A stretch of DNA of 16,784 nucleotides from positions 1-16,784 of the forward strand of contig NW_001915170.1 in assembly GCF_000208925.1 (NCBI RefSeq), in the 5' to 3' direction. Below are positions 1 through 16,784 of this stretch, in pieces (the stretch's first letter is position 1; each line of letters starts with the position of its first letter). The notes beneath the pieces are model-generated. The model had not been told where the DNA came from and ran no database searches. It saw only the letters and a program-made list of their open reading frames with translations. This stretch comes from Entamoeba histolytica HM-1:IMSS. Lineage: Eukaryota > Evosea > Mastigamoebida > Endamoebidae. Made by a program: the position numbers and the translations under genes.

Positions 1-1566
1 ATTAATAGAAGTGTTTTGAATCAAAATACCATATGAAATAATTGAGACGGATATTGTTAACAAAAATATGAAAGAATTAATGAAATAATGTTATAATCAT
101 TTTGATGAATATAAGAATCTATATAGAATAGAAGAAATAATCTATTTGATATTAAAATAATAGATGTAATAGCAGTTAAATATCATATAGAAGATGTTTG
201 TTTTGAAACATAATAATTAATATATTTTCTTGATAATAAATAAAAGTTTTATTTCATTTTTAATTTTATTATTAATATTTATATAAAACAATTTTAAATT
301 AATAAATAATTCTGATAGATGAATAATAAACTAAATATGTTTAGTATAAACTAATATATGAATCGAATAAAATATTATAAATAATATTAATATTTCTATA
401 GAATAATTGAATAAATAATTTATATGAAAAATAAGAAATAAATAAGAAGAGTTATAAATTAAAATATTTATTTAAAAAATAAACATAGAATTTATTTTAT
501 AAAAAGAATTAAATATTAATATTTATTAACATAATTATTTTATTTGTTAATATGAAATAATGAATGAAAAGAATATTTAAATATATTTTTATTTTATTTG
601 TAAATTGTTACATTATTATATTATTTACATAGATAAAATATTAAATATTATTAATTCATTAAATTATTTATAAAATTATAAAGAATTAATAAAATTATAT
701 TTATTTATGATTACTATTATTATTATTATTATTATTTATTGAATAAATTATTTTTGATTTTCTTCTTTTGAAATATATAATTTATTTTATTTATTCAATT
801 TATTTAATATTATGAAATTTATTCTATTTGTTTATTTATTTACTTCTTTATAATATCTATTTATTTGATTAAATTTATCATGTTTCTTTTTGCTTTTTTA
901 ATATATTTTAATTTATGAAATATTTATTTTCTTATTTTTATTTATTTCTTTTTTATAATTATTTTGTATGGTACAATTTATTATTAGTGTGTTAATTTGT
1001 ATATTGTATATTATTATTTCTTCATTCATTTGGTTATTTATCATTTATTTATATTTTGTTTTATACCATATTCTGTTTGTAGAAAATATAATTCTTTAAT
1101 TCTTTGACTATTTCATATCTAATCATTTATTCACGTTTCTCCTGTTTATAACTTATTATTCTCTCTAATATTTAAAATCACATTATTTTTATTATAATTT
1201 ATTATAATTATTTATTTTTAATCAATCTAAAAGAATGAAATTAGTATATACTAATTCATTTGTGTAAATATTAGAATGGAGATTATATTTTGATTCATAA
1301 CAACATAAGAATGTATAGATTTTTCATTTGAAATAAAGATAATAAATGAAAAGAAATAGAAAATGGAAATAAAAATAAAAAGAATGAATAATAAATAAAA
1401 AAGAAGAAATAGAATATGATTAAAAGAATAATAGAAGAATAATATAAATAATAAGAAAATAGAAGAAAATAAGACATAATGATAATAAACAAGAATTAGA
1501 TATAATAAAAGAAATTAAACGATATAAAGAAGAATATAAATAACAGAAATATGTCAGAAGAAGAAA

Positions 1567-1620
1567 AAATATTAATAATTTGTGATTTTCTCCGGAGAAA
1601 ATCACAAATTATTAATATTT
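1567..1620. repeat. 54-bp exact palindrome, left arm
   Basis: This is a perfect inverted repeat with no spacer, centred on CCGG (1592-1595) within TCTCCGGAGA. Each half continues through TTTTC, CACAAATT and ATTAATATT. Symmetry stops abruptly on both sides. It can extrude as a cruciform, or fold as a long hairpin when single-stranded. Its position just outside the repeated ACGT block, and its exact preservation in the other arm, suggest an origin or terminus-resolution structure. The function is inferred. Confidence 0.9.
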
Positions 1621-1648
1621 CAAAATGAAATGATTATGAATGTTCTAA

Positions 1649-1771
1649 AAATAGAATGATGACGTGTAAATACGTAATAATTATTTATAGAAATAGATTT
1701 GACGTGGTAACAACTCAAATGTATTTATAGAAATAGAATTTACTCATCAACACGTAATCAAATATAAATAG
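1649..1771. repeat. Three ~40-bp iteron-like units, left arm
   Basis: Units begin with AAATAG at 1649, 1691 and 1731, and a further AAATAG closes the block at 1766. Each carries one or two ACGT-core motifs (TGACGTG at 1660-1666 and 1700-1706, TACGTAAT at 1671-1678, AACACGTAATCAA at 1749-1761) and ends in ATTTATAG or ATAAATAG. Spacings of 42, 40 and 35 nt approximate four and three and a half helical turns. They lie between the palindrome and the unique core, as expected for Rep-binding iterons beside an origin. Confidence 0.65.
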
Positions 1772-1818
1772 AATTATGGGATAGATAACAAAAAAATCTA
1801 AAAAATTACAAATAGAAA

Positions 1819-2137
1819 TGTCAGCTGACAACGCTGACAAGAATTATAGTAAAATATAATAAAATATATTATAAAATATAATAAAAAATATATATCAGTA
1901 TAAATATATATATATATTTTGGACCTCAGATGTCAGTGTTGAATTATTTATGAAACACTCTCTGACTAAAGTGTGTTGAATAACAAAATTTATGGAATTA
2001 AAATAAATATTATACCTCAATTTTAACTCAATTCAAAACTCAATTATTATTTACTCAGCTATTTTTATAAAAAAGGAAAAGATACTTATAACAAAATAGT
2101 CAGTGCAAGAACCGACTGAAATTATTAGTTCGCTGAC
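1819..2137. repeat. Cluster of GTCAG/CTGAC motifs, left subterminal region
   Basis: GTCAG or its complement occurs at 1820-1824, 1825-1829, 1834-1838, 1932-1936, 1962-1966, 2099-2103 and 2133-2137. The first two form the palindrome TGTCAGCTGACA (1819-1830). The cluster spans the inner end of the repeat arm and the start of the unique core. It stands out because the sequence around it is AT-rich. It may be a binding site for a replication or packaging protein; the function is unknown. Confidence 0.45.
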
Positions 2138-2420
2138 AATTGTTTATATAAAAACGCAACGTGGCAGGGTTGAAAATAACATTCAAAAATTTCAAACGGT
2201 GATGAATTAGGGTGAAAGAAAGGTACAGAAATAAGAAGAAAATATTACTTAGAAGTATAAAGAAGCATCGAAACACTCAAATATAAATAAGGAAAGAGAG
2301 AAGGTGAAGTTTGTATAACGGTTGAGGAATACAAACCTATTTAATAATAATTTAATAATACCAGTTTAATTACAAAAAAAAAGAGAACTCATTAAACACG
2401 AGTAATAGTCCAATTGAATA
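1994..2420. promoter_or_regulatory. Leader region before the kinase gene
   Basis: These 427 bases hold no gene; ATG codons in them are closed quickly by stops. The heptamer CTCAATT occurs three times at 2016-2022, 2027-2033 and 2039-2045, at 11- and 12-nt steps, which places the copies on one face of the helix. TATATAAAA (2145-2153) is a TATA-like element. An A-rich run and a GAACT element lie just before the kinase start. AAATATTAC at 2240-2248 fits the CRESS pattern NANTATTAC, but no inverted flanks surround it. Confidence 0.4.
2385..2397 (+). promoter_or_regulatory. GAACT element before the kinase gene
   Basis: GAACTCATTAAAC begins 36 nt before the start codon. CTCATTAAACA recurs before the 354-aa gene (near 12610-12620). 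It is related to the GAACT elements before the 105-, 163-, 317- and 824-aa genes. Confidence 0.35.
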
Positions 2421-3149
2421 ATGAACAAGGAAAGCATGAATATATCCCCCATGCGATCAGAAGAACCGACATATCAATTCACGAAACAGCATATATTCAT
2501 AAGCGGCAGTTTAGCAACCGGAAAGACTTCTGTCATGAAATGGTTAAATGAATATTTACGAGAAAGAGACGATGTATCATTCATTAAAGAGTATATCGAT
2601 TTCGATGTAGACGGGGAAAAATATTTAGAAAGATTATACCACGGTGAAATTTCAAATTACCAATTTCAATTATACGTATTAAGTTGTTATGAAAAACAAC
2701 TGAATACACTGGATTTCGAAGAAGCGGATGTCATTGTCTGGGAAAGACATCCCCTGGAAGCTTTAAACATATTCTGCAAGGACGATACAACACTAACAGA
2801 AAAAGAACGCAGCATTATTATGTTAAAAATAGAAAGCATGTGTGATAAATACAAAATACCGAAGTTATTCGAAAAAAACATTAATTATATTCACATTGAT
2901 ACGATTTTCTTTGGAATAGAACAGATATCCTATTTTATTTTATCGGAAATAATTTATCAAATGTTACTCGGAGAATACGTGAATGATGTCTTTATATTAT
3001 TATTTTGTAGCAATAATCAGGAGCAGTTAAATAGAATTCTTAGAAGAGAAAGAACAATTGAATTGGATATGTACAAAACAAAGGACGACTTACTCAAAAT
3101 TAATAACAAATATTTTGAGTTTTATTTAAGACGGAAAGATTCGAAATGA
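2421..3149 (+). CDS. Deoxynucleoside kinase, herpesvirus-thymidine-kinase-like
   Basis: The 242-aa protein probably phosphorylates thymidine or other deoxynucleosides with ATP, raising dNTP supply for viral DNA synthesis in non-dividing cells. A P-loop GSLATGKT lies at residues 29-36 after a hydrophobic strand. EYIDF (57-61) fits the substrate-binding acidic region. VIVWERHP (104-111) matches the position of the D/E-R-H/S motif, and its RHP resembles herpesvirus thymidine kinases more than cellular dNKs. RILRRERTIELD (205-216) is the Arg-rich lid. The length is typical for dNKs and shorter than herpesvirus kinases. The ATG at 2421 is used; Met6 and Met11 are alternatives. The neighbouring 52-aa gene follows on the same strand, 41 bp after the stop. 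Family assignment is fairly firm; substrate specificity is inferred. Confidence 0.85.
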   Translation: MNKESMNISPMRSEEPTYQFTKQHIFISGSLATGKTSVMKWLNEYLRERDDVSFIKEYIDFDVDGEKYLERLYHGEISNYQFQLYVLSCYEKQLNTLDFEEADVIVWERHPLEALNIFCKDDTTLTEKERSIIMLKIESMCDKYKIPKLFEKNINYIHIDTIFFGIEQISYFILSEIIYQMLLGEYVNDVFILLFCSNNQEQLNRILRRERTIELDMYKTKDDLLKINNKYFEFYLRRKDSK

Positions 3150-3190
3150 AATAATTGACTATTCATCTAAAATTCTCATTTCATTTCCCA

Positions 3191-3349
3191 ATGCCTGTTA
3201 AACCCGAAGAACCGTTTATAAAGGATTCCGAAACAAGACAGCCAAGAATATTACGGAGACTCTGTTATTCTATTGCCACAGCCGCTATATTATTATTATT
3301 GACCATCCTTATTATTTTAGCAGAATTGGTTTTAAAAATTTTAGAATAA
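3191..3349 (+). CDS. Small single-pass membrane protein, 52 aa
   Basis: This unrecognised protein has a polar, charged N-terminal half (MPVKPEEPFIKDSE...), a short Arg-rich stretch (RILRRL) and then a strongly hydrophobic Leu/Ile segment, about residues 24-50, ending in LELVLKILE-like sequence. Basic residues just before the hydrophobic helix predict a membrane protein with a cytoplasmic N-terminus. The frame is open from a TTG at 3155, but the first ATG at 3191 is preferred for a eukaryotic virus. It lies directly downstream of the kinase and may share its transcript. Possible roles include envelope, entry, exit or viroporin-like functions, none of which can be shown here. Confidence 0.6.
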   Translation: MPVKPEEPFIKDSETRQPRILRRLCYSIATAAILLLLTILIILAELVLKILE

Positions 3350-3351
3350 CT

Positions 3352-3373
3352 ATTAATTGAAGAATCAATTAGT
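3352..3373. terminator. Inverted repeat between convergent genes
   Basis: TAATTGA (3354-3360) and TCAATTA (3365-3371) form a 7-bp stem with a 4-nt AGAA loop. The stem overlaps the TGA stop of the 105-aa gene and begins 5 nt after the stop of the 52-aa gene. The two convergent genes are only 15 bp apart, so this could end transcription in both directions. The AT-only strength of the stem makes it weak evidence. Confidence 0.35.
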
Positions 3374-3682
3374 TTTCTTCGGTTTGGTTTCATTACGGCG
3401 TTTAGAAGAGCATCGCTTCATTATTTCAATTACTTTCTTATATTCTCTTAAAAAGTTCATAGATGTTAAAGCGATATCTTCTACAAGCTCAGCTTCCCTT
3501 TCCATAATTCTCAGATAGTTATCATCCCCTAGAGTAGCACACTGTTCCTTTTTGTATAATTCCTTCATATCATCGCACAACTCCTCTATACCATCGAGAT
3601 CCAAAAAATAACTAGCAAGTACATCAACACTCAAATCTTCGATACTACAAGCCTCAATACGGTCGTCAATCGTGATACTCAT
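3365..3682 (-). CDS. Hypothetical 105-aa acidic helical protein
   Basis: Not recognised. The protein is predominantly helical, with an acidic N-terminal two-thirds rich in Asp, Glu and Leu (SIEDLSVDVLASYFLDLDG, then EELCDDMKELYKKE). A second helix follows (MEREAELVEDIALTSMNFL). The tail is strongly basic (KRCSSKRRNETKPKKTN) and could bind nucleic acid or act as a nuclear localisation signal. It has three or more cysteines but no zinc-finger spacing. The ATG at 3682 is chosen; the frame is open a further six codons to a TTG at 3700. It is divergent from the 98-aa gene across a 189-bp gap. A GAACT element starts 22 nt upstream. Confidence 0.65.
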   Translation of the reverse strand: MSITIDDRIEACSIEDLSVDVLASYFLDLDGIEELCDDMKELYKKEQCATLGDDNYLRIMEREAELVEDIALTSMNFLREYKKVIEIMKRCSSKRRNETKPKKTN

Positions 3683-3691
3683 CAATGAACT

Positions 3692-3704
3692 CTTTTTCAA
3701 GTTC
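3692..3704 (-). promoter_or_regulatory. GAACT element before the 105-aa gene
   Basis: GAACTTGAAAAAG on the minus strand begins 22 nt before the ATG at 3682. AGTTCATTG follows directly before the start, similar to initiator-type TTCA sequences at other starts here. Confidence 0.3.
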
Positions 3705-3871
3705 GTTTAAACATCCACGTTTCACCACCAAAGATACAAAGCATCTCAAACAGACATTCCGATTTCATAAACAGACAAAAAAAAATTCCTCACTCGCTAA
3801 AAATAAGAAAACAGACAGAAGGGTTTTTTTTTCCATCGATATTTTTTTATTGAATATTCAGTTCGACAAAC

Positions 3872-4168
3872 ATGAATACACCAACCGAAACCAAGAAAGC
3901 ATTAAAGGGACTTGTCAACCAATTAGTCGAGGAAATTAGACTCCATCTCTCATCTAATATTACCAGGGAAGGGGAAAGCCTCCTCATTGCTCTGTTTTAT
4001 TGGGTGAGGCGCCTCGATTTCAACGAGGAGTATGAATATAATTCCAGTCTGGCTAATTATCTCCCCTTCTTTTTGGAAGATATCAAATGCTACCTTGTCC
4101 GCTTTGATAAACTGGAGAGAACAATTCAGGAAATTAGCACCCTTTACGTTGAAGAAAATTTTAATTAA
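3872..4168 (+). CDS. Hypothetical 98-aa protein
   Basis: Not recognised. The composition is coding-like and richer in G and C than the surroundings. The sequence suggests a compact helical protein: an amphipathic first helix (KKALKGLVNQLVEEIRLHL), a central hydrophobic segment with aromatic residues (LLIALFYWVRRLDF) and an acidic C-terminal region (DKLERTIQEISTLYVEEN). There is no signal peptide or clear membrane helix. An ATATTCA sequence lies just before the start. It is unusual in containing an exact TAATATTAC (3955-3963) in its coding sequence. Two overlapping frames (3685-3939 and 4032-4232) were judged shadows of this gene. Confidence 0.65.
   Translation: MNTPTETKKALKGLVNQLVEEIRLHLSSNITREGESLLIALFYWVRRLDFNEEYEYNSSLANYLPFFLEDIKCYLVRFDKLERTIQEISTLYVEENFN
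3941..3976. other. TAATATTAC in an imperfect stem-loop (candidate Rep nick site)
   Basis: TAATATTAC (3955-3963) is exactly the geminivirus origin nonanucleotide and fits the general CRESS pattern. It is central in a 14-nt loop (3952-3965) between CTCCATCTCTC (3941-3951) and GGGAAGGGGAA (3966-3976). These arms pair at 8 of 11 positions counting G-T pairs. Outer GAGGA (3929-3933) and TCCTC (3981-3985) are also complementary. It lies inside a gene, the stem is imperfect, and the nonamer is expected by chance a few times in DNA this AT-rich, so confidence is low. Confidence 0.3.
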
Positions 4169-4383
4169 TTTAATTATTTCTCCTCTAATTTTCCTCTTTT
4201 ATTGTATATATATATATTTTCTCAATGAATAGAAGTCGCTCAACGGGCGTTCCCGAATATATAATTGAAACAAAACATTTTACCCCATGCACCGGGTTTC
4301 GAATTTAAACATTGACATTGTATGAATATCAAATATAAATATTATTTAAATACAGTAAGACCAAAAAGGATTAAATTAGTTGT
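4169..4383. other. Intergenic region with GC-rich hairpin and a possible 27-codon ORF
   Basis: Downstream of the 98-aa gene a TATATATATATA tract (about 4205-4216) is followed by TCTCA and an ATG at 4225. A 27-codon frame runs to a TAA at 4306-4308. Inside it is a compact hairpin, CGGG-CGTT-CCCG (4244-4255), and a second G/C-rich patch at 4288-4302. Whether this is a micropeptide, a structured RNA or a regulatory element cannot be decided. Nothing else is visible. Confidence 0.25.
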
Positions 4384-4875
4384 TTAGTCTTCTTTATCAA
4401 CCTTCTTGGGCTTCTTTTCCTTGTCACCCTTTTCAGAGACACTGAGCAGGGCACCGCGTTCCCTTTCCTCCACAACGGCAATTTCCTTCTCTCTACTGGA
4501 ACAGCGTCTAACCCATTCCGGAATCGTACTCTGATTAATCGTTTTCTGATTCAATTTCTTCGCGAATTTTCTATTCCAGGAGTTAAAAGAGGCAAGACCA
4601 ATATTAATTTCATCCAGATATTCTGACATTCGTTCGCACCTCCTGATACTCTCCAGCTTCTGTCTCAATAAATCCTGTCTTTCATCATCGTTCTTTATCT
4701 TATCACTATTATTAAGTTTCCAATCAATATAAGATGGTTCCCTCATCGTGTAGAAGAATTTTTTGAGGAAGGAATTAACATTTGGATCGGCTCGAGACTC
4801 TGTGTAGACATCCATTACATCCATCGAGGCAACATCCGCGTATATATCGTCCTTTGGTCTGTTCATATTCGACAT
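4384..4875 (-). CDS. Hypothetical 163-aa charged protein
   Basis: Not recognised. The N-terminal part is acidic and Met/Asp-rich (DDIYADVASMDVMDVYTE). A middle region carries aromatic residues (FLKKFFYTMREPSYIDWKL). A charged helix follows (DDERQDLLRQKLESIRRCE). The tail from about residue 125 is Glu/Lys-rich and probably disordered (EKGDKEKKPKKVDKED). It is divergent from Rep across 149 bp, so it may be expressed and regulated together with Rep as an early gene. A GAACT element and an AATTCA sequence lie upstream. A GGAGGTGAAC sequence upstream is too far from the start to be a ribosome-binding site. Confidence 0.7.
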   Translation of the reverse strand: MSNMNRPKDDIYADVASMDVMDVYTESRADPNVNSFLKKFFYTMREPSYIDWKLNNSDKIKNDDERQDLLRQKLESIRRCERMSEYLDEINIGLASFNSWNRKFAKKLNQKTINQSTIPEWVRRCSSREKEIAVVEERERGALLSVSEKGDKEKKPKKVDKED

Positions 4876-4904
4876 CGTTTCTTCGTTATGAATTCACCAG
4901 TTTT

Positions 4905-4917
4905 CATTAAATAGTTC
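4905..4917 (-). promoter_or_regulatory. GAACT element before the 163-aa gene
   Basis: GAACTATTTAATG on the minus strand starts 42 nt before the ATG. It combines the GAACT motif with a TATTTAA-like sequence, and GAATTCA follows about 20 nt before the start. This is the most complete promoter-like arrangement in the window. Confidence 0.4.
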
Positions 4918-4939
4918 ACCTCCTTTCAGTGACGCGAAT

Positions 4940-4982
4940 AACACGTAATCAACACGTGTGAAATCCTCATCGCAACACGTAA
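4940..4982. promoter_or_regulatory. Three AACACGT iterons before the Rep gene
   Basis: AACACGT occurs at 4940, 4951 and 4974, spaced 11 and 23 nt apart, about one and two helical turns. The first copy extends to AACACGTAATCAA (4940-4952), a 13-mer identical to one in the left terminal repeat (1749-1761). CRESS Rep proteins often bind the same iteron at the origin and in their own promoter. These sites are therefore likely Rep-binding and autoregulatory, and placed to affect both Rep and the 163-aa gene. Confidence 0.55.
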
Positions 4983-5024
4983 ATAGTTCGACTATCGAGA
5001 CATGCAACTTTTTTTTCTCAAACA

Positions 5025-6674
5025 ATGTCAACAGATAATTTTAACAGTGAACCGAGTAAGCTAGACGAAACCCGTTTAAAAGAAACATTAAAACATGATA
5101 AGGCTTTACATTTTACGTCAAAGTATATGTATCTCACTCTCTGGGGTGATGAAGTTGCGAATCAGACCCAGTTCAAGGAAATAATAGATAGAATGGCCGG
5201 GGCAACAAGCAACGTACAATACGCTCACATCTCACCTGTAGAACACGATGACACGAATCCCCGACCACATCAGCACGCCCTAATCGTATTGAAGCGCCCC
5301 AGGTCGTTCAATGCCAGGCCAATCATTACACACTCGGACGGAACCAGGCAAACGTTCTGGTATTCTCGCGTTAACTCATACACCTCGAGAACGGGGGATA
5401 TCTCTGCACTGATAAAGTACATAACGAAGAACGGGAAAGGAATGTACCAGGGGGATCCGACTAAGAAAGAAGAATTGAAGCAAACATGGGTAAATGCGTT
5501 AAATGACATGGACTCCTACAGAGATTATAAAGAGCTGGAACAAAACCTGATGGAGATCAATTCAGAGAAATACATTCAACAGGAGGGGCGCATCAAAGCC
5601 CGTTGGATGAGAAAAAATGCCAGAAGACTTGACATGGAGCATTATACGAAGACTGACCTACTGCCGTGGAAAGAAGACATGGAAGAAATTAAGACGATTA
5701 GAAAGTGGATCAAGTGCGCGTCAGGGGACAGATATCGAATGGGTAACCTATTCGTCGTAGGTCCAACCAAAACAGGGAAAACGGAATTCGCAATACAGGA
5801 AATATTTATGAAATATAATACATTTATGTTGCGGGGAGATTCCCTGTTTGATACCTACGACGACGAGCAACATTATAAATTCCTGTTATTCGACGACGTT
5901 GATTACGACAAACACACCATGCGCTTAATAAAAGCCATCACGTCCACAATCAATAAAAAAACGATAGTAAATATCAAATACTCAAAGGCGATTGTAACGG
6001 CGAGACCATGTGTCCACCTCCTCAATCAAAGGGAATATGAAAACGTCGTAAATTTAATGAGAGAAAACGGCGGTTATTCATGGTGGAAAAGAAACTCATT
6101 AACCGTGTTCTTAAATAAAAAGATTTACAAAGATCCCAATGAAACTGAAAATCAATCAAAAGACATGTCAGAAGAGGAGAGAGATTATGATCCACGAGAG
6201 GATTTGAACGAAAAATATGACCAAATTAAAGACGTCGACAGTGAAGATTACCAAGATACAGATAAAGAATCTTTGCAGCATGTGAAATTTGAAACGAGGG
6301 TAACTAATCTGATGGAAGAACTGGGTTACGACGAAACATTCCTCGAAGAATTTACCGAAAGGATGAAAACGGCCAAAAAATCGAACAATATCTTAAAACA
6401 GAAACTCAACCAATTAGAAGACGATAATGAAAGCTTAGTGGAAGAATGGGAGAACGACCTAAACGAATACCAAAATGACAACCCACTCGGCATGACGGAA
6501 GAGAATTTTAAACGTTTCGAAGACGATATGATGTCAGAGTTTGAAAGGGAAAGATCGAATTACTTTAACAAAAAAACGAGTGAAGAAGATGGCTATACGG
6601 ACGATGAAGACTTTACAGTGGAACAACCACCTTTTTTGGGGAATGGAAATGATCCAGACATAATCTACGACTAA
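5025..6674 (+). CDS. rep: CRESS-type replication initiator protein (HUH endonuclease + SF3 helicase)
   Basis: The 549-aa protein would nick the origin, stay covalently attached through a tyrosine and unwind DNA. The HUH domain shows motif I YLTLW (36-40), motif II HQH (82-84) and motif III KYITK (131-135) with the single catalytic Tyr132 and Lys135. The SF3 helicase shows Walker A GPTKTGKT (246-253), Walker B LLFDDVD (287-293) and a motif C region IVTARP to Asn334. The domains match the normal order and spacing of circovirus-like Reps of ~300-370 aa. The remaining ~180 residues (370-549) are extra: highly acidic, Asp/Glu-rich, partly coiled-coil and probably disordered. No polymerase gene accompanies it, so host polymerase is implied. 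The start ATG at 5025 follows a T-rich tract and TCAAACA. Convergent with the 824-aa gene, with 17 bp between stops. Confidence 0.93.
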   Translation: MSTDNFNSEPSKLDETRLKETLKHDKALHFTSKYMYLTLWGDEVANQTQFKEIIDRMAGATSNVQYAHISPVEHDDTNPRPHQHALIVLKRPRSFNARPIITHSDGTRQTFWYSRVNSYTSRTGDISALIKYITKNGKGMYQGDPTKKEELKQTWVNALNDMDSYRDYKELEQNLMEINSEKYIQQEGRIKARWMRKNARRLDMEHYTKTDLLPWKEDMEEIKTIRKWIKCASGDRYRMGNLFVVGPTKTGKTEFAIQEIFMKYNTFMLRGDSLFDTYDDEQHYKFLLFDDVDYDKHTMRLIKAITSTINKKTIVNIKYSKAIVTARPCVHLLNQREYENVVNLMRENGGYSWWKRNSLTVFLNKKIYKDPNETENQSKDMSEEERDYDPREDLNEKYDQIKDVDSEDYQDTDKESLQHVKFETRVTNLMEELGYDETFLEEFTERMKTAKKSNNILKQKLNQLEDDNESLVEEWENDLNEYQNDNPLGMTEENFKRFEDDMMSEFERERSNYFNKKTSEEDGYTDDEDFTVEQPPFLGNGNDPDIIYD

Positions 6675-6691
6675 AAAAGAATTAAATTAAT

Positions 6692-9166: not shown

Positions 9167-9173
9167 CAAATAA

Positions 9174-9186
9174 CCAAATAAAGTTC
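9174..9186 (-). promoter_or_regulatory. GAACT element before the 824-aa gene
   Basis: GAACTTTATTTGG on the minus strand starts 20 nt before the ATG, in the 29-bp gap after the 317-aa gene. It may allow a separate transcript. Confidence 0.3.
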
Positions 9187-9195
9187 AATAATCAA

Positions 9196-10149
9196 TTAGA
9201 GATTAACATTATGTTCTGGCAATCCATTATTTGGTATTACCAACCCACCGTTAGAATATGCATCATTGGCATTATCATAAACAGTCTCGGGATTAATTGA
9301 TGGAGCAAATCCATTAGCAATAGCTCCAACTAAAATATACGGAGGTTGAGCATTAGGAATATTACTAGGTACAACAAGTCCATTATTATTGCGAGCATAA
9401 CCAATAAACCCAGCATAAGGTTTAAATGAATTTTCATCAGTAACAAGTACTTTTCTCAAACCTCTCAATGTAACATCAAATTGCCAATGAATAGTAAGAG
9501 TACAAGCATTGGCAACATTAACAGCTTGAGGAGTTTTTATAGCGATAAGTAATTGAGGATTCCATGCACTATACATATTATCCATACTAAGTACATCTCT
9601 AGTATTAGTTGTTGGCAAATACATAGACTTTTCCATCATAGATGCCGCATCTAATTGTCTCACTACTCCCCATCTACTACCATAATACAATGTCTTTTCA
9701 TTTGCACTAGAATAAGAAGAAACAGAAGAATAAGCGGGTAATTGGAAATATCTCGTATTATTAATAACAGCAGTATTAATTCTAACACCATTACGATCCC
9801 ATGCCGTACATATAGAAGGGAATGTTGCACTATTTAACAACTGATTTCCAATGAATGTCATTTCCATGGATGCTCTGACAGCATTTAACTTGAATTGATC
9901 ATACATTCCCATATAATTATGAAAATATTGTGTAGAAGTCATCAAAGCAGTGACATTCCTCAACATTGTACCTTCATTTGCACCAACTGGAACATTAATA
10001 GAAACATCCTCTTGCATACTAATAACTACATTAGTACTATCTCGTTGCTGCATAGCACTTGCAAAATTACCAAATGCTTGTCGTTTCAAAGTTGTACGTT
10101 TTTTATAACCTCTTCTTGGATAATTACGTCTACTAACACGTCGTTGCAT
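9196..10149 (-). CDS. CRESS-type capsid protein, single jelly roll
   Basis: The 317-aa protein has an Arg/Lys-rich, probably DNA-facing N-terminal arm (MQRRVSRRNYPRRGYKKR to about residue 25). A beta-rich body follows. YDQFKLNAVRASMEM (83-97) matches the conserved Y-D-Q-Y/F-K strand of many CRESS capsids. TIHWQFDVTLRG (219-230) matches the late W-x-F/V-x-F-R-G strand. The length suits a T=1-type single jelly-roll protein, although the much larger genome would need a bigger shell or several capsid proteins. The ATG at 10149 is used; the frame is open eight more codons to a TTG. It is flanked by the 576-aa capsid-like gene upstream (33 bp) and the coiled-coil gene downstream. The capsid role is inferred from motifs, not structure. 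Confidence 0.75.
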   Translation of the reverse strand: MQRRVSRRNYPRRGYKKRTTLKRQAFGNFASAMQQRDSTNVVISMQEDVSINVPVGANEGTMLRNVTALMTSTQYFHNYMGMYDQFKLNAVRASMEMTFIGNQLLNSATFPSICTAWDRNGVRINTAVINNTRYFQLPAYSSVSSYSSANEKTLYYGSRWGVVRQLDAASMMEKSMYLPTTNTRDVLSMDNMYSAWNPQLLIAIKTPQAVNVANACTLTIHWQFDVTLRGLRKVLVTDENSFKPYAGFIGYARNNNGLVVPSNIPNAQPPYILVGAIANGFAPSINPETVYDNANDAYSNGGLVIPNNGLPEHNVNL

Positions 10150-10170
10150 CAAATGATTGAAAACAAGATT

Positions 10171-10183
10171 CAATTAAAAGTTC
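10171..10183 (-). promoter_or_regulatory. GAACT element before the 317-aa gene
   Basis: GAACTTTTAATTG on the minus strand starts 34 nt before the ATG and overlaps the stop codon of the 576-aa gene. AACTTTTAATTGA is shared exactly with the gap before the 354-aa fibre gene (12580-12592). It may combine the end signal of one gene and the start signal of the next. Confidence 0.4.
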
Positions 10184-11913
10184 TAATTAAAGAGTGATAT
10201 AGTCTTTGAAAGTAATGAAGTAACATTACCACAAAAATCGACAACTTTATCACCTGCAACTTTCCTCAACCCACCAATTAAGACGGATTCCAAAGCATCT
10301 CGACCAGCACTCAAATAGGTATTATTATCAATAAACTCCATACCTTCAGAAATACCAGTATAAGCATATCCTACCAACACCTTAGCAGTATTATAACCAG
10401 GTACAGCATCAGAAATGGCACTTTCAACTAATGGACCAATTACATTCTTAACTCCTTTTTTAACCATATTACATGCATAAGAAGTAATACCCGTTCCTTC
10501 AGCAAGAGAGCCGAGAGTCAAGAAAGTATCAACTGGAATGTTTTCAACACCATATCGTTTCAATGCATCCGTCCATGACTCTCCATCACCACGTTCAATA
10601 ACAAACCCACTAACACCGTCTTGAACAAATTGTCCTAAACCATTTAACGAAATTACACTGTCATGAGATGCAACCTCGCCAGTCGTTGGATTTCTCCAAG
10701 ATGACTGACAACGAACAAAATTATATGCTTCGACAATCTCAAGAGGAGATGAACGCAAATGCTTAAATCTCACTGTAATATACCCCATAATTTTCATAAT
10801 ATATGAACCATCAGTCTCAACGGTGGTATGATTAGCGAGTTCTTGTTTATATGCAGCTTCAACATCCGCGGCATCCGATCCCTGAAATCCTCCAACTACA
10901 ATACCACGACCAACACGAACTTTTATTTTCACATTATCACGAATAACATCCTGTAAATCAACATTGGCATTATCCAAAATAATCTCCTCTTCTTCTTGAG
11001 GTATTCCCGCATTACCAGTCCAAGAAATACCACCATCATCAATAAAAGAAAGAGCATCAGTAATATCACCAGCACCTGTAGGAAGAGTAGCTTTGGCACC
11101 ATACATAATAAAAGGAAAAAAACGTCCATTTTGATTCTCCGGAATAAATTTATATAACTTTCCAGCCATCATAGTGGGGGTCGTCATCATTTTTTCACTC
11201 GAAGATACTCCAGCGACATCAAGTGATAAATGTAAACTGGCACCGGGTAATTTACTTTGATATATAAAAGAAGAATAGGAAGAAAGAACATCAAAACTAG
11301 GCTCGACATATGAAACTCCTGTAGGACTTGGAGTAAAAAAACCGGGAGGAACAGTACGACGACTAGCTAAACCATAAACAGTTGGAAAACTGAGAACTTG
11401 CGTGGCAATTACTGCTCCATTTACACTTGTTTCCGGTTTTCCGATATAAAAATTCCCATTATAATATTCAATAAATTCACCAGCCTGACCTTCTTCAAAA
11501 TACACGTGATTCGCATCAACTAATAATTCCGCTGCATCAATATCCGTCCAATTTGAACCATTATCGATACTCACCTGAAGTGAAATACTCTTTATAAAAC
11601 ACACTTTAAAATTCAATGTGGATACCCCTTTACTAACATCACCGCAAATATGAACATCCATAATTTTAAATTGATCGAAACAATCACACATTTCTATAAA
11701 TTGTCTAGAACCGGCGAGCATGGATAAACTCGAAATGGTGTGGACATCACTATAATCTCTCCCCCCGTTATGTCTCATTGCACCTTTCCATTCAGTTGAC
11801 ACGGGAATAGTAACGGTAAGCTCCTGTAACTGATTACGTTTTGCAATATCGACATTAACTTTAGCTGGTCCGTATTTCTTATGTTTAAATGTTGAATTGG
11901 ATGAAAAAGACAT
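10183..11913 (-). CDS. Large capsid-like protein, diverged paralogue of the 317-aa capsid
   Basis: The 576-aa protein is beta-rich for about its first 440 residues. SRQFIEMCDCFDQFKIMDVHI (69-89) parallels the capsid's TQYFHNYMGMYDQFKLNAV. LSSYSS (210-215) parallels VSSYSS. GYITVRFKHLR (377-387) sits where the late jelly-roll strand would be. The basic N-terminal arm is short (FKHKKYGPAKVNVDIAKR). Insertions between the motifs, with an acidic EEEE stretch near 307-310, could form surface loops. The C-terminal ~120 residues are Gly/Ala/Val-rich and may be amphipathic or membrane-interacting. It is probably a second capsid protein, such as a vertex or major/minor partner. It is first in the leftward structural block and shares a 40-bp divergent promoter with the 208-aa gene. 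Homology is by eye. Confidence 0.65.
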   Translation of the reverse strand: MSFSSNSTFKHKKYGPAKVNVDIAKRNQLQELTVTIPVSTEWKGAMRHNGGRDYSDVHTISSLSMLAGSRQFIEMCDCFDQFKIMDVHICGDVSKGVSTLNFKVCFIKSISLQVSIDNGSNWTDIDAAELLVDANHVYFEEGQAGEFIEYYNGNFYIGKPETSVNGAVIATQVLSFPTVYGLASRRTVPPGFFTPSPTGVSYVEPSFDVLSSYSSFIYQSKLPGASLHLSLDVAGVSSSEKMMTTPTMMAGKLYKFIPENQNGRFFPFIMYGAKATLPTGAGDITDALSFIDDGGISWTGNAGIPQEEEEIILDNANVDLQDVIRDNVKIKVRVGRGIVVGGFQGSDAADVEAAYKQELANHTTVETDGSYIMKIMGYITVRFKHLRSSPLEIVEAYNFVRCQSSWRNPTTGEVASHDSVISLNGLGQFVQDGVSGFVIERGDGESWTDALKRYGVENIPVDTFLTLGSLAEGTGITSYACNMVKKGVKNVIGPLVESAISDAVPGYNTAKVLVGYAYTGISEGMEFIDNNTYLSAGRDALESVLIGGLRKVAGDKVVDFCGNVTSLLSKTISLFN

Positions 11914-11953
11914 AAACTGATATTACAAGATCCCCGAGAAACTGAGAATATCA
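11914..11953. promoter_or_regulatory. Compact bidirectional promoter between capsid and fibre genes
   Basis: Only 40 bp separate the two start codons. TGATATT (11918-11924) and AATATCA (11947-11953) form a near-symmetric inverted repeat. Read in its own direction, each gene therefore has AATATCA 0 or 4 nt before its ATG. CCCCGAGAA in the middle is unusually G/C-rich. This looks like a shared control region giving co-expression of the two structural blocks with very short leaders. Confidence 0.5.
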
Positions 11954-12580
11954 ATGAACACAGAAGTGAGTATAAAAGACCTAATAAACACTTGTAATAT
12001 CCTCCAAATGAATCAATACGACATTGTATTGGAAAAAGAAACAATAACTCTAAAAGATATACCAAGCTTACTTGTAATAAACAGAATAAAACTAACAGGA
12101 ATTAATCCAGACAACGACGAAAAACAAATACAAATAAATGAACAACCAACTAATCATATAATCATAACATCTGAAAAGGGTAACACTCAAACATGGCAAT
12201 CTCTAAACATTCCAACTTCAACTGTGACATTTCTAACAATGAAAGACGACGATGAACACGAAATAATGATTACAGAAGGAAGTGGAATACTCTATGTGGT
12301 AATGAGCTTCGACTTGAAAACACGCGCAATCCGTTTCGGTGCATACAAAAATCAATGGTTCAATATCACACCTCAAAAAAACATAATAATATTTCCCTAC
12401 AGATTAAATTATAATGATTCGACTAAACGTTTATTATTAACATTGGAAAGTGGGGGAAGAGAACAGAACTCGGACCAGCAATACATTGAAATAGACCTGG
12501 AAATTAATGGGGGATTATCAACAATTTCTCCTGGTCTCTTTGATGAGATTTGGAATAAATACTTCAATAAGGAAGTTTAA
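11954..12580 (+). CDS. Short fibre-like protein (anchor + head)
   Basis: This 208-aa protein is not recognised by family. Its first ~48 residues (MNTEVSIKDLINTCN ... EKETITLKDIP) match the start of the downstream 354-aa protein (METEINLTNLIKTCN ... EKEKIILTNIP). Its last ~129 residues, from TWQSLNIP (80-87), match that protein's last ~126 residues from TWSELNIP, including SPGLFDEIW against PTSLFSNRW near the end. The protein thus looks like an anchor joined through a short linker to a beta-rich head. Duplication with the 354-aa gene is clear. A role as a virion spike or receptor-binding fibre is inferred from the shaft repeats of its longer relative. Confidence 0.7.
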   Translation: MNTEVSIKDLINTCNILQMNQYDIVLEKETITLKDIPSLLVINRIKLTGINPDNDEKQIQINEQPTNHIIITSEKGNTQTWQSLNIPTSTVTFLTMKDDDEHEIMITEGSGILYVVMSFDLKTRAIRFGAYKNQWFNITPQKNIIIFPYRLNYNDSTKRLLLTLESGGREQNSDQQYIEIDLEINGGLSTISPGLFDEIWNKYFNKEV

Positions 12581-12592
12581 ACTTTTAATTGA
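12580..12592 (+). promoter_or_regulatory. Shared intergenic motif before the 354-aa gene
   Basis: AACTTTTAATTGA overlaps the stop codon of the 208-aa gene and starts 50 nt before the next ATG. The same 13-mer overlaps the junction of the 576- and 317-aa genes on the other strand. TTCATCTCATTAAACA lies closer to the start. Confidence 0.35.
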
Positions 12593-12629
12593 TTAGTTAT
12601 TCGATTCATCTCATTAAACATTATAACCA

Positions 12630-13694
12630 ATGGAAACGGAGATAAACCTAACAAACCTCATAAAAACATGCAATAAAACAAACCAAAATTCTCTTGAAAT
12701 AATTTCCGAGAAAGAAAAAATTATTCTAACAAATATACCGGATTTAGAAACAAAACAGCCAATAAATACTATAACTCTATCTTCTTATATAACACAGAAT
12801 GGAAATTATACAATTCAGACACCAACTGATTACGATGGAATAAAAGAAGTAAACCTCAAAGTCGATGTACCTCCTAAAACAGAAGATATGTTAGTAAAAT
12901 TGATAAACCAGAACGGCCAACAAACCTTCTTACCAGAACCGAATCATACCTTCGGTCAAGTTTCGATAACAACGGATGTCAACCCTCCTCTTCAAACACT
13001 AGCACACACATTTACGAATAACGGAAATTACCTTCTTAAACCAGACGAAAATCATTACGGTTTAAATGCCGTCAATGCATCAATAAACGTACAACCTGCT
13101 CTACAAGCAAAAGACATAACAATACAGGAAAACGCAACAGCAACTTACACTCCGGATTCAAACTACTATGGTTTTTCAAAAATTACCATAACCACGAACA
13201 TCCCAGAAGAAAAACATACATTCAATAAGCTATATTATTCTAGTGGAACCGAAGCCTTTCCAATTAACTATCCTACCAACATAATAAACCTTCCTACAAA
13301 CACAGAACAGGTTACATGGTCGGAACTCAACATTCCTTACTCCGAAGAAACGACACTCGTAAAATCTAGTCACGCGCTTAGACCATTTTATATAACTCTA
13401 CTAAGTTCTAAAAGCTGCCTTTCGTTAAAATTCGCAAATAATGGGAAATTAGAACCCCGATTCATATATGAAGGAGAAATCTTCTTAGCTGCGGGGGAAA
13501 AGGCATTACTCGTTCCAATACTCTTCGCCAATGCAATAAATTGGGGCAGTATATTCTTTATAGCATCGAACTCTGATGATGAAATGGCACAACAAGAAGA
13601 TTCAATGAAAATAGCATTCAGAAAAGATACACCATCATATTCATATTTGCCAACTTCACTTTTCTCGAACCGCTGGAAAGCACTAGGTAATTAA
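12630..13694 (+). CDS. Long fibre-like protein (anchor + four-repeat shaft + head)
   Basis: The 354-aa protein is probably a virion fibre or adhesin. Residues 1-50 are an anchor shared with the 208-aa protein. Residues ~52-193 hold four tandem repeats of about 36 aa built around N-G/A-x-Y/T, then Pro, then Y/F-G/D-G and a V-x-I/V-x-V-x-P strand. Examples are QNGNYTIQTPTDYDGIKEV, NNGNYLLKPDENHYGLNAV and ENATATYTPDSNYYGFSKI. Such repeats are common in tail fibres and adhesins of gut bacteria and phages. A head from TWSELNIP (229-236) to the end is shared with the 208-aa protein. No signal peptide or membrane helix is seen. The head probably contacts the host surface. It is the last gene before the right terminal repeat. 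Confidence 0.75.
   Translation: METEINLTNLIKTCNKTNQNSLEIISEKEKIILTNIPDLETKQPINTITLSSYITQNGNYTIQTPTDYDGIKEVNLKVDVPPKTEDMLVKLINQNGQQTFLPEPNHTFGQVSITTDVNPPLQTLAHTFTNNGNYLLKPDENHYGLNAVNASINVQPALQAKDITIQENATATYTPDSNYYGFSKITITTNIPEEKHTFNKLYYSSGTEAFPINYPTNIINLPTNTEQVTWSELNIPYSEETTLVKSSHALRPFYITLLSSKSCLSLKFANNGKLEPRFIYEGEIFLAAGEKALLVPILFANAINWGSIFFIASNSDDEMAQQEDSMKIAFRKDTPSYSYLPTSLFSNRWKALGN
12783..13208 (+). repeat. Coding region for four ~36-aa shaft repeats
   Basis: The repeats span roughly residues 52-82, 88-120, 125-157 and 161-193 of the 354-aa protein. They are clear at protein level but have drifted strongly at DNA level, so the array is not a recent duplication. The whole array is absent from the 208-aa paralogue. 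Confidence 0.75.
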
Positions 13695-13819
13695 ATTCTT
13701 TTGTGAATAATTTAATGTTGTCAGTTGTACAGGAAAATAAGAGTGAAATAACAACCAAAGGGAAGTGCATGTAACGATTTCCTGATAACTGATAACATTA
13801 AATCGAGCAAAAGAAATCA
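13695..13819. other. Spacer between the last gene and the right repeat
   Basis: This 125-bp stretch contains no gene. TAATT overlaps the stop codon of the 354-aa gene, a T-rich stretch follows, and one GTCAG motif lies at 13720-13724. It is much shorter than the 427-bp leader at the other end. Confidence 0.5.
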
Positions 13820-13994
13820 ATAAATTGTGTTATTCAACACACTTTAGTCAGAGAGTGTTTCATAAATAATTCAACACTGACTTTTGAGGTTCAAAATATA
13901 TATATATATATTTATACTGACTATATATTTTTATTATATTTTATAATATTTTTATTATAATTTTACTATAAATTTGGTCAGCGAGTCAGCTGAC
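13720..13994. repeat. Cluster of GTCAG/CTGAC motifs, right subterminal region
   Basis: Seven copies lie at 13720-13724, 13847-13851, 13877-13881, 13917-13921, 13977-13981, 13985-13989 and 13990-13994. Some mirror the left cluster as part of the inverted repeat. The copies at 13720 (outside the repeat) and 13917 are not simple mirror images, so the motif is enriched beyond what the repeat alone explains. Confidence 0.45.
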
Positions 13995-14043
13995 ATTTCT
14001 ATCTTTAATTTTTTAGATTTTTGTGTTATCTATTCCATAATTC

Positions 14044-14167
14044 TATTTATATTTGATTACGTTTCAATACGTCATCATTCTATTTCTATAAATACATTTG
14101 AGTTGTTACCACGTCAAATCTATTTCTATAAATAATTATTACGTATTTACACGTCATCATTCTATTT
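14044..14167. repeat. Iteron-like units, right arm
   Basis: This is the mirrored copy of the left block. The innermost unit differs: read on the minus strand it carries GAATGATGACGTATTG where the left arm has GAATTTACTCATCAACACG. As a result it resembles the outermost unit (GAATGATGACGTG) more closely than its positional partner does. The ACGTAAT half is kept. Confidence 0.6.
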
Positions 14168-14195
14168 TTAGAACATTCATAATCATTTCATTTTG

Positions 14196-14249
14196 AAATA
14201 TTAATAATTTGTGATTTTCTCCGGAGAAAATCACAAATTATTAATATTT
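14196..14249. repeat. 54-bp exact palindrome, right arm
   Basis: This is identical to the left palindrome and centred on CCGG at 14221-14224. It sits at the mirrored position (1567 pairs with 14249). Both arms keep perfect symmetry although the neighbouring inner repeat has drifted. Confidence 0.9.
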
Positions 14250-15815
14250 TTTCTTCTTCTGACATATTTCTGTTATTTATATTCTTCTTTATATCGTTTA
14301 ATTTCTTTTATTATATCTAATTCTTGTTTATTATCATTATGTCTTATTTTCTTCTATTTTCTTATTATTTATATTATTCTTCTATTATTCTTTTAATCAT
14401 ATTCTATTTCTTCTTTTTTATTTATTATTCATTCTTTTTATTTTTATTTCCATTTTCTATTTCTTTTCATTTATTATCTTTATTTCAAATGAAAAATCTA
14501 TACATTCTTATGTTGTTATGAATCAAAATATAATCTCCATTCTAATATTTACACAAATGAATTAGTATATACTAATTTCATTCTTTTAGATTGATTAAAA
14601 ATAAATAATTATAATAAATTATAATAAAAATAATGTGATTTTAAATATTAGAGAGAATAATAAGTTATAAACAGGAGAAACGTGAATAAATGATTAGATA
14701 TGAAATAGTCAAAGAATTAAAGAATTATATTTTCTACAAACAGAATATGGTATAAAACAAAATATAAATAAATGATAAATAACCAAATGAATGAAGAAAT
14801 AATAATATACAATATACAAATTAACACACTAATAATAAATTGTACCATACAAAATAATTATAAAAAAGAAATAAATAAAAATAAGAAAATAAATATTTCA
14901 TAAATTAAAATATATTAAAAAAGCAAAAAGAAACATGATAAATTTAATCAAATAAATAGATATTATAAAGAAGTAAATAAATAAACAAATAGAATAAATT
15001 TCATAATATTAAATAAATTGAATAAATAAAATAAATTATATATTTCAAAAGAAGAAAATCAAAAATAATTTATTCAATAAATAATAATAATAATAATAAT
15101 AGTAATCATAAATAAATATAATTTTATTAATTCTTTATAATTTTATAAATAATTTAATGAATTAATAATATTTAATATTTTATCTATGTAAATAATATAA
15201 TAATGTAACAATTTACAAATAAAATAAAAATATATTTAAATATTCTTTTCATTCATTATTTCATATTAACAAATAAAATAATTATGTTAATAAATATTAA
15301 TATTTAATTCTTTTTATAAAATAAATTCTATGTTTATTTTTTAAATAAATATTTTAATTTATAACTCTTCTTATTTATTTCTTATTTTTCATATAAATTA
15401 TTTATTCAATTATTCTATAGAAATATTAATATTATTTATAATATTTTATTCGATTCATATATTAGTTTATACTAAACATATTTAGTTTATTATTCATCTA
15501 TCAGAATTAATTATTAATTTAAAATTGTTTTATATAAATATTAATAATAAAATTAAAAATGAAATAAAACTTTTATTTATTATCAAGAAAATATATTAAT
15601 TATTATGTTTCAAAACAAACATCTTCTATATGATATTTAACTGCTATTACATCTATTATTTTAATATCAAATAGATTATTTCTTCTATTCTATATAGATT
15701 CTTATATTCATCAAAATGATTATAACATTATTTCATTGATTCTTTCATATTTTTGTTAACAATATCCGTCTCAATTATTTCATATGGTATTTTGATTCAA
15801 AACACTTCTATTAAT

Positions 15816-16784
15816 CTTCTTATTTCTTTATTAATTAATCTTCTTATTCTTATTACAAATACTAATTATCATTACTTTCATCATTCTATTCTCTTGAATT
15901 TTCATAATTTATATCTTACATGTTCATTTTATTCATAAATATTATATTTATATTGCAATTTCTTACATTTATCATATCTATGATACGTGATATTTGTTCA
16001 TTGAACATATCATATAAATGTCTAGTATTTTATTGAACTTCATTTATTCTTTATTCATATTTTCACTATGCTTCATTACTATTATCTCTTCTTTTCTACT
16101 CTTCTTATGTTATCTTTTTTCGTTTGTATGTTCCCTTTATTCTTTTCCTCAGTTGATTTATTATTTTATTTTGAAATAATTTGTATTTAATTCTTAATTC
16201 TCTCAAAATATATTCATCTATTAATTCATGTTTTCCATCTGATTTTTCTTTGTTACAATTACACTTTAATATTATATATTTGATAATTGTTGTTTTATCA
16301 TATAATTAACAAAATGATAATATTTTATTATATTTCATTGTACTTTCATTCTTCCTGAATCACCTTTACCTGTTCTTATCATTTTCTTTGTATATTTATT
16401 AATTTCATTATTTTATTTGTAATTTCTTTAATTGCCATATAACTATTAAAATTGTTTCTATTTTGCTTACTTTGATTCTTCTTTTTCTAATTCTTCAAAC
16501 TAATATTGTTTGAATATATTCTTTATATATTTAATACTCATATTTATTTGTTTTTTCATATTCTCTTTATTGTCTTTTTTATTTATTCTCTTTCTTCAAA
16601 CACTATCAAATATATTCATTAATCACTTTTCTTTCTTTTGATTTATTTCATCTCATTATTTAAATGTGAATTGCATTATTCTTCTATTATATTCTAATCA
16701 TTATTTATCTTTAAATATTATTATTCAATATTAATTCTTCTCTTTTTAACATATAATCTTACTATACATTTTCTTTCTTTTTCA
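15816..16784. other. AT-rich, gene-free sequence beyond the paired repeat
   Basis: No gene is visible in these 969 bases. Composition and texture (T-rich, with many TTCTT and ATTATT runs) continue those of the repeat arm without a break, so this is probably the outer part of the terminal repeat whose left copy lies before the window. Host flanking DNA cannot be excluded. A small inverted repeat, TGTTCA-T-TGAACA (15995-16007), lies in a run of further short ATCATAT/GATAT inverted segments at 15970-16015. Confidence 0.5.

Follow-up and report, generated by a model that had tools for sequence, protein, structure and literature searches.

The genome assembly of Entamoeba histolytica contains five related virus-like units of approximately 12 kb, each lying between long inverted repeats. 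One of them is found in the window analyzed here, that is, the whole 16,784-base stretch that makes up contig C88. Its core of approximately 11.8 kb is enclosed by arms that are exact inverted copies of each other at 1–1739 and 14077–15815 (1,739 identical bases); gapped alignment extends the match to 1–1999 and 13814–15815, with 98.45% identity over 2,005 columns. These exact and gapped alignments confirm the core size and the inverted repeats of at least 1.99 kb described in an earlier note on this DNA. The left arm (1..1999), on the kinase side, is cut by the contig end and may exceed these limits because position 1 is the end of the contig. The right arm (13814..15815), on the spike side, has an outward continuation (15816..16784) with 99–100% identity to contigs C82, C56, C86, and C72 as far as those reach; it extends to 16784 and then further on other contigs. 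Arms reach at least 3.1 kb beyond the palindrome described below.

Genes of the core

The first part of the core, from kinase to Rep, is termed the early block. It begins with a deoxynucleoside kinase of 242 amino acids (2421..3149, forward strand), which matches the Pfam dNK family above the cut-off (E 5.4e-10) and has no match among PDB sequences at E 0.01. Three further ORFs follow, each present in all five copies: ORF111 (3365..3700, reverse strand), ORF98 (3872..4168, forward), and ORF163 (4384..4875, reverse), the last of which is short in C49 (86 amino acids). The block ends with a 549-amino-acid CRESS-type Rep (5025..6674, forward) composed of an HUH endonuclease, an SF3 helicase, and a long acidic C-terminal part. 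Across 19 aligned Reps, its HxH, YxxK, Walker A, and Walker B motifs and the motif-C asparagine show little or no variation, which bears out the complete HUH and SF3 motifs reported earlier. Matches to PF23343 were obtained for 10 of the 19 members (best E 0.00097), and the two top hits of the Rep profile in the PDB are both replication-associated proteins, but at E 0.5–0.8. The window Rep by itself matched no Pfam Rep family and, in a sequence search, no solved structure.

The structural genes begin with a coiled-coil protein of 824 amino acids with a basic N-terminus (6692..9166, reverse), a proposed structural protein, followed by the CRESS/circovirus-like capsid protein Cap317 (317 amino acids; 9196..10149, reverse), which has an arginine-rich N-terminus. 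The Cap317 profile aligned with nine distant CRESS-type Caps at an hhalign probability of 100 (E 1.1e-45), and two of those nine match PF02443 (Circo_capsid), below its cut-off. Initiation of both ORFs at in-frame ATGs, giving 317 amino acids for the capsid protein and 824 for the coiled-coil protein, is the more likely arrangement; most other copies have these lengths. Among metagenome relatives of Cap317, 11 of 61 lie on contigs of 11.9–28 kb; the contigs of the other 50 do not reach 11 kb, and this says nothing of genome size.

A 576-amino-acid protein (10183..11913, reverse) is a possible second capsid protein, the link consisting of no more than shared short motifs (hhalign probability 31). 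The earlier note had spoken of capsid-type genes in the plural; this holds for Cap317, and for the 576-amino-acid protein it stands as a possibility. One member of the latter's cluster is located on a 214,769-base contig of another assembly. ORF208 (11954..12580, forward) has an N-terminus related to its neighbor, a 354-amino-acid protein (12630..13694, forward) with repeated NGNYT-type segments and weak relatives in a second family (family B, below), which we propose as a spike. This spike candidate had no match in phages, and neither it nor the two capsid profiles matched solved structures by sequence. None of the ten ORFs gave a Pfam match to a polymerase B, transposase, or integrase, in agreement with the earlier remark that no polymerase B gene is visible.

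Five copies, a candidate origin, and a mosaic

The window and four other contigs share a set of ten genes whose order does not change, enclosed in each case by the same arms. Since five syntenic copies lie within the same arms, this is one real unit, neither an artefact nor a small virus beside unrelated genes. The latter case, a small circular virus merely lying next to other genes, had been named in the earlier note as one that would overturn its proposal; it is ruled out by synteny, the flanking genes accompanying Rep and capsid in all five copies and being under purifying selection wherever this is measurable.

Structural proteins are 87–100% identical between copies, and dN/dS is below 0.2 in 31 of 35 structural-protein comparisons. 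Of the proteins measured, Cap317 is under the tightest constraint (0.00–0.04, six pairs); the coiled-coil protein, at 96–99% identity, has values of 0.08–0.13 (six pairs). Some genes are interrupted, namely the 576-amino-acid gene in C82 and C72 and the Rep and kinase genes in C72, and these were left out of the dN/dS set, as were the C86 coiled-coil protein (split across two pieces) and the C49 capsid and ORF163 (shorter ORFs). No dS could be calculated for 3 of 6 kinase pairs, 3 of 10 for ORF111, 4 of 10 for ORF98, 5 of 6 for ORF163, and all 6 for Rep. Overall, the genes of the unit look as though purifying selection has kept them working.

Between copies, DNA identity is 41–78% in a variable early block (2101..6600), as against 84–100% in the remaining core. 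Judged by sequence comparison, the early block is far older than the structural block, and Rep lineages are common to different strains and species, crossing species boundaries. By the same measure early blocks predate the species split and structural blocks postdate it, so that the unit is a mosaic of old early blocks on young, shared structural blocks. The question this raises is what maintains the diversity of Rep on a young structural backbone.

Each arm of the window contains a perfect 54-nt palindrome, a candidate origin hairpin (1567..1620 in the left arm and 14196..14249 in the right). It is present in all ten arms and exact in nine; the tenth, in C86, has a paired change that preserves palindromy. 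This conservation, although the surrounding sequence varies between arms, and a hairpin-region z of −8.8 mark the palindrome as a candidate replication origin. Beside it are two iteron-like 40-bp direct repeats (1660..1737, forward, in the left arm; 14079..14156, reverse, in the right). In CRESS viruses the classic nonanucleotide, NANTATTAC, lies in the loop of an origin hairpin; it was not found in the 54-nt palindrome. A loose match, AATTATTAC, is found in each window arm among the 40-bp repeats, outside the palindrome, and is missing from the C86 arms; the whole window holds seven loose matches.

Over window columns 949–1560, the two arms within one element are 99.8–100% identical in four of the five elements, and arms of different elements are 97.4–99.8% identical; the C86 arms, 98.5% alike, are no closer than arms from different elements. 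The inner arm ends within one contig diverge, at 71–99% identity (window columns 1741–2000), and the inner part of the arms has no copy outside the five contigs (10 of 10 candidates scored).

A second, distant family in the same genome, family B, has a similar gene content with relatives of Rep, Cap, and spike, and its contig C11 carries arms of its own. UniRef records of single genes already exist under the names Replication protein or Capsid protein. Scans of viral contigs and of bacterial and archaeal genomes confirmed no relative of the element.

Resident virus or mobile element

Contig C56 starts with arm sequence and, beyond its first 1,183 bases, matches interspersed chromosomal repeats, for which reason it was not counted as part of the element. 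One arm thus probably joins chromosome-like repeats, and the junction suggests that at least one copy is integrated. On the 522-kb contig C392, a decayed arm piece (80–86% identity) adjoins a host gene, and a 565-amino-acid ORF considered as an element gene proved to be a chromosomal repeat with at least 110 matches (77 of 499 candidates scored). Unique host genes adjoin the arms on none of the five contigs, all ten ends of which lie in AT-rich arms or, for C86, in another repeat. Nothing in the arms or contigs of the assembly indicates a circle. A resident provirus and an episome are about as likely as each other.

We consider it likely that the units represent an Entamoeba virus lineage resident in the genome or nucleus, with a CRESS Rep and Cap, a core of approximately 12 kb, and origin-bearing inverted repeats. 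It is favored by what the sequences show, namely the synteny of ten genes in five copies, the low dN/dS values, the palindrome and its hairpin score, the close agreement of arms within four of the five elements, the Rep motifs, the profile match of Cap317, and family B, together with the relatives of Cap317 on contigs of 11.9–28 kb. For the nicking site, replication route, packaging, particles, and topology, we infer the following. The early block would supply Rep, which would bind the 40-bp repeats; the palindrome would extrude as a hairpin and be nicked there by the HUH tyrosine, and the SF3 domain would unwind the DNA while a host polymerase copies it. As both arms would carry an origin, they would be kept identical by copying or by recombination between them. 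The kinase would increase the supply of dNTPs, and the particle would consist of Cap317, the coiled-coil protein, and the 576-amino-acid protein, with the 354-amino-acid protein as spike. Against this reading, the C56 junction and the relative on the 214,769-base contig point to integration. The interrupted genes, the C86 arms, the lack of a Pfam Rep match for the window Rep by itself, the short contigs of most Cap317 relatives, and the absence of relatives among the viral contigs scanned likewise tell against it.

The C56 junction and the relative on the 214,769-base contig, along with the decayed piece beside a host gene on C392, would suit a chromosomal mobile element, that is, a transposon or provirus driven by its Rep that has captured a capsid module, copies out in the nucleus, and forms particles rarely or never. 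We hold this to be possible, if somewhat doubtful: the dN/dS of Cap317 is hard to explain without use in particles, no unique host genes adjoin the arms, and copies of the inner arm region are confined to the five contigs. A more ambitious proposal, that the unit is a CRESS branch which exchanged the small circle for a linear inverted-repeat genome of at least 15 kb, is still infectious or particle-forming, and underlies the polyhedral virus observed in E. histolytica in 1972, strikes us as unlikely; a 2023 review gives no genome for that virus in its Table 1.

Lower still we rate old integrations from which the amoeba took over viral capsid and Rep genes, for example for antiviral defence. 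Rep lineages common to strains and species, and small RNAs against endogenous Reps (Kinsella 2020, PMC7493932), accord with such a take-over, but what is retained is entire ten-gene units with arms and palindrome, not single genes, and the structural blocks arose after the species split, the early blocks before it. That assembly alone produced the inverted repeats, through hairpin reads or a collapsed repeat, is hardly credible. All five contigs do end in arms or an adjoining repeat, but the same anatomy recurs on five contigs with different early blocks, the inner arm ends of one contig diverge as a folded copy would not, and the family B contig has its own arms; this other case posed in the earlier note is accordingly rejected. 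The resident virus lineage is the preferred reading.

Comparison with known systems

Very small circular genomes are characteristic of CRESS viruses. The larger-genome CRESS lineage proposed earlier is upheld insofar as Rep and Cap occur in one large unit with five syntenic copies; its linear form is something that may be so. The unit has the HUH and SF3 Rep motifs of the Cressdnaviricota and a CRESS-type capsid protein, which is not universal in that phylum. No description of the ten-gene inverted-repeat unit was found in the literature searched. A lineage that retained Rep and Cap while expanding to some ten genes flanked by inverted repeats would show how small Rep viruses can reach mid-size without acquiring a polymerase. 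The unit is also a case of capsid genes that remain strongly constrained within the genome of a parasite, and a concrete sequence that can now be tested against unidentified E. histolytica virus particles.

Parvoviridae and Bidnaviridae have terminal inverted repeats with hairpins and an HUH and SF3 replication protein. The Entamoeba element resembles them in its inverted repeats with candidate hairpins and its Rep, but its ten ORFs have no Pfam match to Parvo_NS1, parvovirus VP, or polymerase B, and its Cap is CRESS-like. From Polintons and adintoviruses it differs in that polymerase B, a retroviral-type integrase, and a double jelly-roll capsid are absent from its Pfam matches. Adomavirus hosts are of the fish type. 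Adomaviruses that carry a CRESS-type Rep (preprint PMC11071296) are similar in their mid-sized genome and several virion proteins, but are described there as circular, with adenovirus-like late proteins, none of which the element's ORFs matched.

Within Entamoeba, the ERE1 repeat (7,160 bp, one 369-amino-acid ORF, very many copies; Lorenzi 2008, PMC2657916) is likewise AT-rich, with long terminal inverted repeats of 2,221 bp; compared with ERE1 by its description, the element has ten ORFs, a core of approximately 12 kb, and five copies. Fourteen Rep-like sequences were counted in E. histolytica (Liu 2011, PMC3198968), probably including some of the genes described here; in the parts of that account available to us they are single genes, with no capsid, arms, or unit described. 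Two families of CRESS viruses with small circular genomes from Entamoeba, the Naryaviridae and Nenyaviridae (Kinsella 2020, PMC7493932), share the host genus, an HUH and SF3 Rep, a Cap gene, and copies in Entamoeba assemblies. Their descriptions set them apart as small circles with Rep, Cap, and a nonanucleotide origin, whereas the element has ten genes, a core of approximately 12 kb in five copies, inverted arms, and a palindromic candidate origin.

Anatomy of the element and its copies

The window comprises all of contig C88 (16,784 bases), within a 392-contig, 16.95-Mb assembly that is most likely from E. histolytica, judging by the protein identities of Rep and of a capsid. Its inverted arms (1-1999 and 13814-15815) share 98.45% identity over 2,005 columns, their outer 1,739 bases being identical, and GC content is 11-13% in the outer arm parts versus up to 42% in the core. 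The core encodes, in order, a kinase, ORF111, ORF98, ORF163, Rep, a coiled-coil protein, the circovirus-like capsid protein Cap317, a 576-amino-acid protein, ORF208, and a 354-amino-acid protein. Each arm carries one set of a 54-nt perfect palindrome (1567-1620 and 14196-14249) and 40-bp repeats. The sequence TATAGAAATAGA is found four times in the window, two per arm (0 of 200 shuffles gave four). A single occurrence of TAATATTAC lies at 3955-3963, inside the early block (kinase to Rep) and distant from the arms.

Four further contigs of 14.4-16.7 kb (C49, C72, C82, and C86) carry the identical ten-gene set and order within the same arms, and it is near certain that the copies share ancestry as a real unit. 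Some genes are interrupted or shortened: C82 and C72 are affected in the 576-amino-acid gene, C72 also in Rep and the kinase, and C49 in ORF163 and the capsid ORF. The inner arm region has no further occurrence in the assembly beyond the five elements (10 of 10 candidates scored). The outer arm (40 of 437 candidates scored) was found as the ten arms and one decayed 221-base piece, 86% identical, on the 522-kb contig C392, remaining matches being AT-rich and 66-81% identical.

The palindrome is present in all ten arms and exact in nine; the tenth, in a C86 arm, has two mutually pairing changes that preserve it, and the neighbouring C86 repeats are strongly different. Columns 1561-1740 are 100% identical across the eight arms of C88, C49, C72, and C82, to which C86 is 84-86% identical. 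A functional hairpin would show this pattern, with the caveat that paired changes would also arise for free if a hairpin were copied end to end. Over columns 949-1560, the arms of one element are 99.8-100% identical in four of five elements, and arms of different elements 97.4-99.8%; the exception is C86, whose own arms are only 98.5% alike. Inward of column 1741, arms within one element diverge. Judged from these alignments, the two arms of an element appear to evolve together, C86 excepted.

A two-speed mosaic

DNA identity to C88, measured in 300-base windows, is 41-78% at 2101-6600 versus 84-100% at 6601-13800, with the jump located near the Rep stop codon. Protein identity is 87-100% in the structural block (dS 0.04-0.25 between copies) and 29-81% in the early block (dS saturated or above 0.6). 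Reps within this genome are 67-84% identical to one another; the C49 Rep matches E. nuttalli P0010 at 96.2%, the C72 Rep, over its open part, E. dispar P0011 at 96.3%, and the C82 Rep E. dispar P0003 at 88.2%. The Rep tree gives 100/100 support to C49 with P0010, and likewise to C82 with P0004 and P0003. By these figures, the Rep lineages predate the species. Cap317 shows the opposite pattern: it is 99-100% identical within the genome, whereas the closest relative in E. dispar shares 74%. With old Rep lineages and a young Cap317, therefore, either co-resident elements homogenise their structural genes and arms, or one backbone has spread, acquiring old early blocks.

Ratios of dN/dS are below 0.2 in 31 of 35 structural-gene comparisons: 0.00-0.04 for Cap317 (six pairs), 0.04-0.10 for the 576-amino-acid protein (three), 0.08-0.13 for the coiled-coil protein (six), 0.04-0.18 for the 354-amino-acid protein (ten), and 0.10-0.45 for ORF208 (ten, the top four being all pairs involving C49). 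So strict a conservation of the shell protein would argue that shells are in use now, or were until very recently.

Protein relatives and a second family

The window Rep, 99.8% identical over 505 residues to an E. histolytica HM-1:IMSS-B protein, contains HxH, YxxK, Walker A, Walker B, and motif-C asparagine. It matched no Pfam family; PF23343 was matched weakly in 10 of 19 Rep relatives (best E 0.00097), and in PDB two Rep chains were weakly similar (E 0.5-0.8). Among 22 Rep relatives, all 16 with a source name are from Entamoeba. Cap317 has 69 relatives: seven from Entamoeba, one CRESS DNA virus, and 61 without a source name. Contigs of 11.9-28 kb carry 11 of these 61 and shorter ones the other 50, so a large genome for relatives outside Entamoeba is no more than suggested. 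The 576-amino-acid protein, which resembles Cap317 weakly (probability 31), has at least 12 relatives (8,000 candidates scored), and the seven with a source name are all from Entamoeba. The kinase scores above the Pfam dNK cut-off in the window and in C82; sequence search of PDB returned no match for it. For the 354-amino-acid protein, a proposed spike, a search gave no phage match.

Locus tags and contig sizes, rather than DNA, suggest the same gene neighbourhoods in E. dispar: one contig of 19,304 bases has Rep EDI_113650 and the 576-amino-acid EDI_113620, another of 15,699 bases has Rep EDI_192730 and Cap EDI_192750, and a third of 5,220 bases has Cap EDI_017400 and the 576-amino-acid EDI_017390.

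A distant second family, family B, comprises eight contigs matching one another at the DNA level (C11, C48, C69, C123, C142, C174, C189, and C239). Its Rep is 23-28% identical to the window Rep, and its 507-amino-acid Cap, intact in five contigs, partial in two, and not found in C11, is 38% identical to Cap317. It also carries a relative of the proposed spike (weak, 30-36% identity, in six contigs), and its 496- and 505-amino-acid proteins have a GSYG motif in common. Inverted arms occur in two of three contigs tested: C11 has arms of approximately 1.17 kb (96.8%), C69 has a terminal 179-base inverted copy of its own left palindrome region, and C48 has no inverted arm pair. One capsid of the assembly outside the window contig is 100% identical to E. 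histolytica CL6EHI_154760. A C69 protein (L042:448-1221), related to the 354-amino-acid protein of the window, has an ITENGSYTI segment, a motif that occurs in phage and bacterial surface proteins. A further Rep, 26% identical to that of the window, lies on the 72.9-kb C335 (L018:4593-6011), near a gene that is presumably GH25 lysozyme-like.

Probable integration and comparison with known agents

The arms extend at least 3.1 kb outward of the palindrome (C82). Contig C56 begins as arm sequence, 99.6% identical to the window end over 563 bases, and may be the flank of the window itself; beyond base 1,183 it turns into sequence that recurs elsewhere in the assembly, part of it a repeat with many occurrences. 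A C86 arm adjoins another repeat (L015:1-1000) at a sharp edge that recurs on C56 and C174. Because the arms of C56 and C86 run into repeats seen elsewhere, at least one copy has probably integrated, though a free form may exist as well. On C392, the decayed outer-arm piece (105600-107600; 80-86%) adjoins family B end-like sequence near an importin-like gene and appears to be a remnant of an old insertion. The same contig carries at 101600-105599 a 565-amino-acid ORF that belongs to a chromosomal repeat of high copy number, with at least 110 matches across the assembly; this repeat may be like ERE1 (described in Lorenzi 2008, PMC2657916).

We regard a virus-like element, replicated by Rep and using capsids, as the probable nature of this unit. 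The E. histolytica virus reported in 1972 is entered in a 2023 review as polyhedral and 70 nm, with no genome listed there; that the element is a free, linear, particle-forming virus identical with that agent seems to us unlikely. Among the papers listed from the open-licence literature, none gave an account of this ten-gene unit. Earlier papers describe, for Entamoeba, small circular viruses (Kinsella 2020, PMC7493932) and single Rep-like genes (Liu 2011, PMC3198968).
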